Of a DNA stretch of 59,327 bases, positions 7,260 through 11,273 are shown in pieces. Position 1 is the first letter of the stretch. Each line of letters starts with the position of its first letter. Origin of the DNA: Candidatus Methylacidiphilales bacterium (GTDB lineage: Bacteria; Verrucomicrobiota; Verrucomicrobiia; Methylacidiphilales; CAZTYG01); NCBI GenBank assembly GCA_033875315.1, contig JANRJG010000030.1, positions 1-59,327 on the forward strand, in the 5' to 3' direction. Made by a program: the position numbers and the translations under genes. A model generated the notes under the pieces. The model was not told the DNA's origin. It saw nothing but the letters and a program-made list of their open reading frames with translations, and searched no databases.

Positions 7260-10200
7260 ATGTATTTGCAATCGCTCGAGGTGGTGGGGTTTAAGTCGTT
7301 TGCCGAGCCCACGAAAATCAGTTTTGACCGCGGGGTGACCGCGATTGTGGGCCCGAATGGCTGCGGGAAGAGCAATGTGCTCGACTCCATCCGATGGGTT
7401 TTGGGCGAGCAGTCGGCCAAGGCCCTCCGCGGCGGCAATATGCAGGATGTCATTTTCAGCGGTACCGACAGCCGCCGCGCCCTGGGCATGGCGGAGGTCA
7501 CTATGCACTTCGCCGAGTGCGAGAAGGAACTCGGCACCGATTTCCACGAGGTCCGCATCACCCGGCGCGTCTTCCGCGACGGTCGGAGTGAATACGAGAT
7601 CAATAAAACGCCCTGCCGCCTGAAGGATATCCACAACCTTTTCATGGATACCGGCATCGGACGCTCGGCCTACTCCATCATGGAGCAGGGGAAAATCGAC
7701 AAGATCCTCTCCGCCAAACCGGACGACCGGCGGGAAGTTTTCGAGGAAGCCGCCGGCATCACCCGCTTCAAGTCCCAGAAAAAAGAGGCCCTGCGCAAAC
7801 TCGAGGCCACCGAGTCGAACCTCATCCGCGTGGGCGATATCGTCAAGGAATTGTCCCGCCAAATTGGGTCACTCCAGCGGCAGGCTGGGAAAGCCCGCCG
7901 CTTCAAGGAAGTTCATACCCGGTTGAAGTACCTCGACACCCGCCTGGCCGGCCATCTCTACGCCGAGATGCGCGCGCGCCTCGATGCCGGAGAATCGCGC
8001 GTCCAGGGCCTGCAGATGGAGTTCAAGGCCATCCAGCAGGACCTGGAACAACAGGAGTCCGACCTCTCGGTCAAACGCCAACGGGCGGAACAGCTCGAAC
8101 AGGAACTGCGCGCACTCCACCAACAGAAGAGCCTGGCCGAAAGCAATGTGGAAAAAGCCCGCCAGGCCATCCGCTTCAACGACGAACGCATCACGGAATT
8201 CCTTGCCCTCCAGGAAAAGAACCGCGCTGAAATTGCCGCCAGTGGGGAAAAAGTGGCCGATCTCCAGGGCCAGGTCGCGCGCATGCAGGCAGAAGAAGAT
8301 TCGATGCAGGCCGTCCTTGCCCGCTTGGGCGAGGAGCTTGCCGTCCTCCAGACCGCACAGGAAGAGGCCCGCAAACGGGTCTCCGACAACCTCAAGCAGC
8401 GTTCCATCCTGGAACAGAAGCTCAACCAGACCGATAAACAACTCAACACGACCCGCCAGCGCATCGCCGCCCTCGAACTCCAGCAGAATTCCTTCATCGT
8501 CCGGGTCGAAAAACTGGGAGAAGAGGAAAAAATCCTCTCCGCCAGGGGCCGGGAATTGGAGGACAAACTGGCCGAGTCCCGTGCCCGCCTGGACAAGCAC
8601 CAGCAGGCCCACCAGAACCGTCTCGATGAAGTGGTCCGGCTGACCGCCGCCCGCGACGAGGCCGGGGCACTTTTGGAAAGGGCCCGTAAAGATGCCGAGT
8701 TGGCCGCATCCGAGGCCACCCGCAAGGAAGCCCGTTACCATGTGCTCAGCGAAGTGTTGGGTTCGCGGTCCGGTTATTCGGAGAGCACCAAGACCCTCCT
8801 GGGCAAATTCCAGGGTCCGGGTATTTCCGGAACCCTCCTCGATCACATGGAGATCAAGTCGGGCTATGAGAAAGCCATCCAGCGCGCCCTTGGCGCGGCT
8901 TGGGAGGCGCTCATCATCGAGTCGCCCGACGCGCTGCGTGCGGTGACCGAGGCCATCCGCGGTGTCGGGGCCACCGTGGTGGTGGCAGATCTGTTTTCCC
9001 AAAACCCGGGCTCGGCCGAATCCCGTTCCTTCATCCAGCGCCTGGGCCAGACCCTTTTCGGGGCCAAGACGGCGGATGCCCGCGCTTCCTCCATCGACGC
9101 GGCACGCGCCGCCATGAGCTTCGTCACCGCCCAGTCCCGGGTCCGCAACCTGGTCGAACGCATCCTCGAGGAATTCCTCGTCGCCGCCGATGCGGCCGAA
9201 GCGGAGGAACTCCGTCGACTTCACCCCGGGTGCCACATCGTCAGCCGCGACGGCGAAGTCTGGTTCCGCAATGGTCTGCAGATCCGGGGTAGCGATTCCT
9301 CGGCCCTGGCCGCCATCGTCGAGCAAGAGAAGGAATGGAAAGTCCTCCAGGCCGAACTTCCCGGTCACAAACAAAAAGCGGAAAAAGCCCAAGCCGCTTC
9401 CGATCTGGCCCGCGCCCGCTTGGACGAGGCCGAGTCCGTCCTGGACCGCACCCGCAAGCAATCCCAGGAAGAGGAGGGCGGACTGGTTTCGGCCCGATTC
9501 GAATGCGAGGCCCTGGAACGGCAACTCCAGGAGTGGCGCAACTCCTGTGAGACGGTTTCCCGCGAAAAGACCCATCTCAGCCAGCAACAAACGAGTGAAC
9601 AGGGCGGACGCGACGGGCTCGAGGCCCAGGTCCGCGGAATGGAGGCGGAACGTCTGGCCCTGGCCGGGGAAGTCGATTCGCTCATCGTCCGTTTGGGTGA
9701 GCTTAACCAGGAAGTAGAAGAACACTCCCAGCGGGTCACCGAGGCCCGCATCCGCCAGGCCGCCCAGCAACAGAAGGCCCAGACCATCCACCAGGAACTG
9801 GTCATCCAACAAAACCGGCTCCAGGAAGTGGAAAAGGCCAGACTCGACCGCGAGCAGGAAATCGGCGCCTACGAGGTCCGCATCCTCGAATGCCTCGAAA
9901 ACTCCGGCAGGGCGGAACAGGAAATCGAGGCCTGTGCGCGCCAGTCGGGTGAGTTGGAGCAAACCCTGGCCATCCGCGAGAACGAACGCCGCGAAGTCGG
10001 GCGTCTCCTGGGCGAGATCGAGGAAACCGCGCGCATCGGACGCCGCAAAGCCGGGGAAGTCCAGGGCATTTGTGGGCGCGAGGAAGTCCAGGTGGCCGAA
10101 CAGCGCATGCACCTCAATGCTTTGGTGGAGCGCATCCACCGGGCCTATGAGATTGATCTGGCCACCTGGGACCCCGCCACGGCGGAACGCCCCCGACCGG

Positions 10201-11273
10201 AGGGTGCGACTCCCGCTCCGAAAGCACGTTGGACCCCGTCCGATGCCGACGTTGCCCTGGCTGCTCCGGCCAAGGATGTGTTGGCTTCCCTGCCCGTTCC
10301 CGCTCCCCTGGAAGGGGAGGGGACCGCGGTAAATGGTCAAGCAACCTCGGCCCCGGATGCCGGATCGGAAACCGCGGACGCTGGCTCGGATCCGGCTGCA
10401 ACAGCGGTTGAGGCGGACCCCGTTTCCCAACCGGAGCGCGTGGTTGAAGTGGAAGTAGAAGAGGACCCGTTACTGGTCGAGCCGGTCGACTGGCAGGCCG
10501 TGGCCAATGAGGTCAACGAACTGCGTGAACGCATCGACCGCATGGGTCCGGTCAATGTCGAGGCCATCACCGAATACGAGGAACTGGAACAACGGCTCAG
10601 CTTCCTTGCAGGTCAGGAGAAGGATCTCCTGCGGGCCCGCGACCAGCTCCATGAGGCGATCAAGAAAATCAATGAGACCACCCGTGTGCTCTTCTCCGAG
10701 ACCTTCGCCAAGATCAAGGCCAACTTCTCGGAAATGTTTGTCGAACTGTTCGGCGGTGGCAAGGCCGACCTCAACCTGCAGGACGATGCCGATCCGCTGG
10801 AGTGCGGTATCGAAATCGTGGCCCGTCCCCCGGGCAAGCAGCTCCAGTCCATCACCCTTCTTTCCGGGGGGGAGAAGACCATGACCGCGGTGGCCTTGCT
10901 CTTCGCCATCTACATGGTCAAGCCCAGCCCCTTCTGCTTCCTCGACGAAATGGACGCGCCGCTGGACGAATCGAACATCAACCGCTTCATCCGCATCCTC
11001 CAGCGCTTTGTCACCCAGTCCCAGTTTGTGGTCATCACCCACAACAAGCGCACCATCAGCAGCGCCGATGTCCTCTACGGGGTTACGATGGAAGAGCACG
11101 GGGTTTCCAAGATCGTCTCGGTCCGGCTCAACCGCAAAGAAGAGTCGCCCTTGTTCAACGGCAACGGAGGCGACGACACTCCGCCATCCATTGCCGATTC
11201 CATCCGACACGGGGCTTTGGTGACGGAGAGCCAGGGTTCGCGGGAGAGCGAGGCTCCTGCCGAGCTGAATTAG
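7260..11273 (+). CDS. smc: chromosome partition protein SMC
   Basis: The ATG at 7260 gives MYLQSLEVVGFKSFA, the family start; an in-frame ATG at 7215 only adds 15 unlike residues. The protein is 1337 residues, longer than the usual 1150-1200. The order is: Walker A GPNGCGKSN (31-39), long coiled coil, hinge (about 495-680), second coiled coil, signature LLSGGEKTMTA (about 1199-1209) and Walker B FCFLDEMDAPLDE (about 1222-1234). Two oddities account for the length. A low-complexity Ala/Pro/Glu insertion lies at about residues 975-1078 near the C-terminal head, and a non-conserved tail of roughly 50 residues follows the D-loop and H-loop region. It is the ATPase of the condensin-like complex and works with ScpA/ScpB, which are not encoded here. 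Confidence 0.96.
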   Translation: MYLQSLEVVGFKSFAEPTKISFDRGVTAIVGPNGCGKSNVLDSIRWVLGEQSAKALRGGNMQDVIFSGTDSRRALGMAEVTMHFAECEKELGTDFHEVRITRRVFRDGRSEYEINKTPCRLKDIHNLFMDTGIGRSAYSIMEQGKIDKILSAKPDDRREVFEEAAGITRFKSQKKEALRKLEATESNLIRVGDIVKELSRQIGSLQRQAGKARRFKEVHTRLKYLDTRLAGHLYAEMRARLDAGESRVQGLQMEFKAIQQDLEQQESDLSVKRQRAEQLEQELRALHQQKSLAESNVEKARQAIRFNDERITEFLALQEKNRAEIAASGEKVADLQGQVARMQAEEDSMQAVLARLGEELAVLQTAQEEARKRVSDNLKQRSILEQKLNQTDKQLNTTRQRIAALELQQNSFIVRVEKLGEEEKILSARGRELEDKLAESRARLDKHQQAHQNRLDEVVRLTAARDEAGALLERARKDAELAASEATRKEARYHVLSEVLGSRSGYSESTKTLLGKFQGPGISGTLLDHMEIKSGYEKAIQRALGAAWEALIIESPDALRAVTEAIRGVGATVVVADLFSQNPGSAESRSFIQRLGQTLFGAKTADARASSIDAARAAMSFVTAQSRVRNLVERILEEFLVAADAAEAEELRRLHPGCHIVSRDGEVWFRNGLQIRGSDSSALAAIVEQEKEWKVLQAELPGHKQKAEKAQAASDLARARLDEAESVLDRTRKQSQEEEGGLVSARFECEALERQLQEWRNSCETVSREKTHLSQQQTSEQGGRDGLEAQVRGMEAERLALAGEVDSLIVRLGELNQEVEEHSQRVTEARIRQAAQQQKAQTIHQELVIQQNRLQEVEKARLDREQEIGAYEVRILECLENSGRAEQEIEACARQSGELEQTLAIRENERREVGRLLGEIEETARIGRRKAGEVQGICGREEVQVAEQRMHLNALVERIHRAYEIDLATWDPATAERPRPEGATPAPKARWTPSDADVALAAPAKDVLASLPVPAPLEGEGTAVNGQATSAPDAGSETADAGSDPAATAVEADPVSQPERVVEVEVEEDPLLVEPVDWQAVANEVNELRERIDRMGPVNVEAITEYEELEQRLSFLAGQEKDLLRARDQLHEAIKKINETTRVLFSETFAKIKANFSEMFVELFGGGKADLNLQDDADPLECGIEIVARPPGKQLQSITLLSGGEKTMTAVALLFAIYMVKPSPFCFLDEMDAPLDESNINRFIRILQRFVTQSQFVVITHNKRTISSADVLYGVTMEEHGVSKIVSVRLNRKEESPLFNGNGGDDTPPSIADSIRHGALVTESQGSRESEAPAELN

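Follow-up and report, generated by a model that had tools for sequence, protein, structure and literature searches.

A long, predicted disordered connector in the Smc joint of a Candidatus Methylacidiphilales bacterium and its relatives among Verrucomicrobiota

We analyzed a stretch of 59,327 nucleotides from a Candidatus Methylacidiphilales bacterium (assembly GCA_033875315.1, contig JANRJG010000030.1), here called the window. It carries an smc gene, single copy in this genome (G000, a draft of 42 contigs), whose product has a 100-residue insertion in the Smc joint. We placed the start of the gene at ATG 7260, not GTG 7215, judged from MYLQSLEVVGFKSF. The protein scores 952.9 bits against NCBIfam TIGR02168 (SMC_prok_B), above the curated cut-off of 567.35, and also matches SMC_N (PF02463) and, at residues 519-651, SMC_hinge (PF06470). 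Both halves of the ATPase head are present, with GPNGCGKSN (Walker A), the LSGGE signature and FLDEMDA (Walker B) all present in the translation. The genome also encodes the kleisin ScpA (PF02616, E 3.1e-40, C1:28789-29445). The features discussed below are as follows.

7260-11273, + strand: smc gene, 1337 residues; open reading frame (ORF) with TIGR02168, SMC_N and SMC_hinge matches
10146-10544, + strand: whole joint connector, conserved Tyr963 to the residue before GPVN, 133 residues; 37-44 in relatives with a short connector (the short state), 35 in Bacillus subtilis
10176-10475, + strand: insertion proper, 100 residues (973-1072), absent from the profile, rich in Ala, Pro and acidic residues, predicted disordered from the AlphaFold2 (AF2) confidence score pLDDT (predicted local distance difference test)
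10491-10544, + strand: joint helix alphaC3, residues 1078-1095, opening with the conserved Trp of a DW motif; a helix in both AF2 models
10545-10556, + strand: GPVN loop between alphaC3 and alphaC4, residues 1096-1099; G, V and N invariant, a helix break in both models
10560-10751, + strand: helix alphaC4, residues 1101-1164, leading to the C-terminal head lobe (AF2 model)
10752-11150, + strand: C-terminal ATPase head lobe with LSGGE signature and LDE Walker B; profile matches to PDB 3zgx and 5xg3, structural match to 5h66_B (target-normalized TM-score, TMt, 0.85)

The insertion is a real feature of this SMC, and its exact length is confirmed. The TIGR02168 alignment ends at profile position 960 (nucleotide 10175) and restarts at position 962 (nucleotide 10476), so 100 SMC residues are extra. 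A reading of the window from its sequence only had reported an extra low-complexity stretch at 10186-10494; the stretch is there, and those coordinates lie within some 20 bases of the measured ones. Its core of 104 residues (972-1075) contains 15.4% Pro, 21% Ala and 19% Asp plus Glu, with a net charge of -14, and DAGSETADAGSDPAATAVEA is present within the insert. Pro reaches at most 5.8% in any of the 1025 segments of the same length in the protein that do not overlap it, and the core has the lowest entropy of any such segment.

The insert starts ten residues past Tyr963, which is invariant across 33 aligned rows, and stops shortly before the conserved Trp at the start of alphaC3, found in 135 of the 188 Verrucomicrobiota SMCs compared below. 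As described for the Smc joint (PMC5526789), the N-terminal helix is continuous and the C-terminal strand is split into alphaC1 to alphaC4; alphaC2 crosses to alphaC3, and a short loop then leads to alphaC4. A profile built from 15 short-state joints hits 5nmo, the crystal structure of the B. subtilis joint (E 4.9e-12), in which the connector has 35 residues. By this homology, the insert lies in the joint connector that links alphaC2 to alphaC3, and it affects the C-terminal strand only. Its position matches that in B. subtilis, with the helices after the conserved Tyr on one side and the helix preceding GxVN on the other; the difference is that the 35 residues there fold as short helices, whereas about 100 of the 133 in the window are predicted unfolded. 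Because alphaC3 and alphaC4 lie between the insert and the C-terminal head sheet, the insert is not directly at the head. The sequence-only reading had the C-terminal coiled coil interrupted just before the head; this is not supported as stated, since the interruption lies in the joint, with two helices intervening. Diebold-Durand et al. (2017) describe alphaC2 and its adjacent peptides as free of axial cross-linking residues (PMC5526789), so the insert should point outward from the rod axis, an orientation that we infer from the homologous joint crystal of B. subtilis.

Structure prediction suggests that the insert is disordered. An AF2 model of residues 873-1295 (57 sequences, mean pLDDT 80.8) gives mostly 93-98 for the flanking helices and 39-60 for the insert; alphaC3, alphaC4 and the break between them at GPVN are preserved, as is the head lobe. 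A weaker model of residues 1-1200 (33 sequences, mean pLDDT 70.1, predicted TM-score (pTM) 0.33) has an unbroken N-strand helix at 167-502 and no structure across 964-1077, where residues 981-1070 score 30-39. Such values, 30-60 over the two models, agree with the flexible loop proposed earlier; low pLDDT fits disorder but is no proof of it. Foldseek searches with the C-terminal model returned two heads, 5h66_B of B. subtilis SMC and 5xei of P. yayanosii, the latter including the joint. When the two-strand model was the query, whole SMCs, hinges and heads were matched, and the joint itself gained no useful hit.

Across the phylum, we counted connector length from the conserved aromatic residue up to the last residue ahead of GxVN. 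The sample comprised 213 genomes, 135 with a C-terminal head (C-head) match of any kind and 78 without, and 99 stretches were fetched. From 223 loci we dropped nine without a C-head match, three that were too short (L004, L029, L034) and six without the pattern [GA][PTSA]VN (L080, L102, L176, L030, L217, L216); L080, L102 and L176 do have connectors, which are excluded from the measured lengths. Removal of duplicates left 188 distinct Verrucomicrobiota SMCs.

Connector lengths among these 188 form two groups: 78 have 37-44 residues and 110 have 51-134. The connector in the window, at 133 residues, is the second longest. All 56 SMCs from other classes of the phylum are short (39-44), and all 39 from the window's class outside its own order are long (64-134). 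The window's order, with the window included, is mixed, with five long connectors (60, 83, 86, 96 and 133) and 22 short ones (37-40). The named loci are long in 66 of 66 cases (51-97); note that this set was picked by similarity to the window and is an uneven sample, from which named duplicates of unnamed loci had been removed. As an outgroup we used 11 SMCs from Bacillota and Pseudomonadota, a small part of the 66 records found (52 + 14); one of the 11 comes from a record labelled Acinetobacter phage. All 11 have connectors of 25-40 residues; the lengths of 38 given for rows L001 and L162 in this comparison are artefacts and are excluded. The window's 133 residues fall outside the 25-44 usual for short rows and outgroups, while membership of SMC_prok_B is unaffected.

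A long connector is shared in loose form by many relatives (110 of the 188 rows), but its sequence is not kept. Long connectors also occupy this site in the loci L003, L005, L006 and L007, with insert sequences that differ from that of the window. The same is true of the class's other orders (f12, f10, f16, f17, f19, f20 and Chthoniobacter-like SMCs; the connector of Chthoniobacter flavus, L070, has 92 residues), and several f12 rows carry a KRRRKKK-like basic run, which the window lacks. In L162, L164, L166, L178 and other f12 connectors, an acidic run, a low-complexity stretch, the basic run and a conserved end can be read; judged from sequence, these f12 connectors are a charge-patterned linker. 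Overall, the long connector is a lineage-wide length variant of an already known joint element. Among the papers listed by our literature searches, none deals with an SMC joint insertion in Verrucomicrobiota, judged from titles and the starts of abstracts.

Two kinds of damaged locus were seen at or near the connector. In L034 (also L004, G029), the C-head ORF starts inside the connector, where the frame is apparently broken; coverage of L034 is 2.4x, so sequencing error is likely. In L030 (G054), there is an in-frame TAG just past the GPVN region of the SMC.

Among 69 full-length SMCs, the standard deviation of length is 0 for the 14 residues before the Tyr, for the 105 from GPVN to LSGGE and for the 85 beyond, and the connector ranges from 37 to 133 residues (standard deviation 16.4). 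Of the other parts of the protein, only the C-terminal tail varies strongly (7-205), and the hinge varies moderately (104-147). Between SMCs with C-head identity of 0.90-0.999, connector lengths differ in 75% of 194 long-state pairs and in none of 50 short-state pairs. The ratio of nonsynonymous to synonymous substitution rates (dN/dS), calculated from 12 close equal-length pairs of other long lineages, is 0.28 for the variable part (bootstrap 0.13-0.51). The other regions give lower ratios: 0.034 (head), 0.056 (alphaC3), 0.10 (first 20 residues) and 0.125 (coil). A value of 0.445 over all 24 equal-length pairs was set aside, the distant pairs probably being misaligned. By these values, the connector in these lineages evolves loosely, not freely.

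We also asked how the long state arose. The C-head tree (103 of the 188 sequences, thinned at 88% identity) requires four changes between long and short, and its starred branches force at least two. However, a single clade of all long rows is not rejected (approximately unbiased test, p-AU 0.18). One origin and a few events are both compatible with these results.

We consider it moderately probable that natural expansion of a permissive, outward-facing joint site gave rise to the insert as an intrinsically disordered loop, loosely constrained and perhaps mildly modulating. The N-strand is uninterrupted and the spacing of alphaC3, GPVN and alphaC4 is normal, so the coiled coil can close under the loop. 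The loop itself, in the alphaC2-alphaC3 connector of the C-terminal strand only, would point outward from the rod's two-fold axis. In B. subtilis Smc, peptide insertions are reported to be poorly tolerated along the arms, with the exception of some parts of the joint and the region close to the hinge (PMC5526789; screen in PMC5344682). The insertions of that screen are artificial and of 14 residues, against about 100 natural ones here. Tolerance of the joint site would explain why length and sequence drift under weak purifying selection. The joint is regarded as setting head orientation and as a point of contact for loaders and unloaders. Connectors of 37-134 residues between helices of fixed length are a natural series for asking how rigid the joint has to be and whether ParB needs free access to its surface.

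As to function, the loop would most likely serve as a tether, with ATPase activity and the mechanics of the rod unaffected. It would mildly tune how flexible the joint is and how easily partners reach its surface, which is the proposed docking site of ParB in B. subtilis. The ScpA N-domain, a contact that the sequence-only reading thought might be affected, binds the SMC neck, between joint and head; for the joint itself, ParB/Spo0J is a nearer known partner (PMC9564211). The joint is proposed to orient the SMC heads, and in B. subtilis paired insertions between head and joint (204/996) are reported to uncouple head engagement from rod opening (PMC5526789). Given a joint that orients heads, an effect of the insert on head engagement, exerted through the joint, is possible.

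Several observations weigh against this explanation. The low AF2 confidence at the insert stems in part from mostly gapped alignment columns, and the two-strand model is poor (pTM 0.33). The window's family has a single genome in the sample, and the selection figures come from other lineages only. Net charge is negative in all 110 long connectors and falls with length in long rows (rho -0.58), but C-terminal tails are net negative in 67 of 67 cases at similar density (-0.136 vs -0.122 per residue). Because the tails are equally acidic, connector acidity is no evidence for a site-specific role, and we rejected site-specific selected acidity despite the length-charge correlation. Lastly, synonymous codon usage is atypical in the insert, with GC content at third codon positions (GC3) of 0.61 vs 0.78 in the rest of smc. 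This objection is tempered, as 74 of 87 rows with connectors of at least 70 residues, the window among them, have a lower GC3 there than in the head.

Some of these same facts would suit neutral filler, a by-product of a permissive site that has no role and drifts freely in length and sequence. Connector length changes fast, identity is low, acidity equals that of the C-terminal tail and codon usage is relaxed. However, a dN/dS of 0.28 with a bootstrap upper bound of 0.51, below 1, together with constraint at 0.10 on the first 20 residues (in the other lineages), argues against free drift, as does retention of the long state throughout the rest of the class and the named rows (39/39 and 66/66). 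We regard filler without any role as rather unlikely.

A stronger version of function is also rather doubtful. The long linker may be a class-wide functional innovation, an entropic tether that replaces the compact alphaC2-alphaC3 connector and uncouples or tunes the head-to-arm signal or gates ParB docking. If so, the lineage would be a natural exception to the rule of stiff, fixed-build SMC arms near the heads.

By contrast with our preferred disordered, loosely constrained loop, a docking hub would carry partner-binding motifs (for ParB, ScpB or another protein) and fold on binding, on the model of the MukB joint. The enlarged MukB joint is described as an 84-residue insertion in the same strand and as an interaction hub, with MatP as partner and AcpP bound close by (PMC8669397). 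Both proteins have a large insertion that enlarges the C-terminal strand at the joint, but the MukB joint is a structured domain with known ligands, and the window's insert is predicted unfolded (with the reservation on pLDDT given above) in a protein that belongs to SMC_prok_B. The joint has been proposed as a binder of ParB/Spo0J in B. subtilis (PMC9564211, citing Bock 2022), and the window's genome has ParB, ScpA and one parS-like palindrome. However, genomes with the short state, and others that lack SMC altogether (e.g., G013, G079), have ParB and parS-like sites too; they do not track the trait and provide no correlation in support of a ParB role. In addition, comparison by eye of the five long inserts from the window's order showed no common motif apart from their ends. 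We therefore rate a docking hub as improbable.

An in-frame landing of selfish or repeat DNA, such as a Rickettsia palindromic element (RPE)-like sequence, is highly improbable: two short inverted repeats (10300-10322 and 10359-10396) and the atypical codon usage speak for it, but the insert is single copy in its own genome (next best DNA match E 0.07), the palindrome has one other place there, at two mismatches, the insert has no tandem repeat and relatives' inserts at the same place differ in sequence. On these searches of the genome, a multi-copy RPE-like element was rejected. Equally remote is an assembly error or frameshifted stretch, although the genome is a draft of 42 contigs and the only one of its family in the sample: frame 0 is open, and its similarity to the spacers of relatives is slightly higher than that of shuffles (z 1.3-2.7), the other two frames contain stops and show no resemblance to those spacers, so that a frameshift reading was rejected, and the four loci L003, L005, L006 and L007 are long at the same place. 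A single-genome artefact, which the sequence-only reading had named as the outcome that would overturn it, is contradicted by these relatives and the open frame; with a long connector common to many of them, a natural variant, not a sequencing error, looks likely.

The comparison also turned up genomes that lack both an SMC above the TIGR02168 cut-off and a ScpA match: G079, G085, G091, G136 and G165 (f11 g17), G013, G023, G027 and G031 (f8), G061 and G065 (f21) and G094 (f14), all rated 99-100% complete. Akkermansia muciniphila is reported to have no known condensin homologue (PMC10197239), and g17 may be this genus. In f8, divergent SMCs (L216/L226 in G007, L217 in G044) have GPAD or GSVD replacing GPVN, the ScpA match of G007 is below the cut-off (20.8 bits) and sister genomes are without SMC; going by sequence, Smc-ScpAB was possibly lost stepwise in this family. 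One further genome, G162 (99% complete), has a good ScpA match (E 2.4e-38), yet no SMC above the TIGR02168 cut-off.

Two minor observations concern the window's smc gene. The segment between two hinge marks (~8820-9245) has 139 residues, compared with a median of 122 in the 69 full-length SMCs. Antisense to smc runs an ORF of 853 residues (7869-10430, - strand), probably a by-product of the smc codon pattern.

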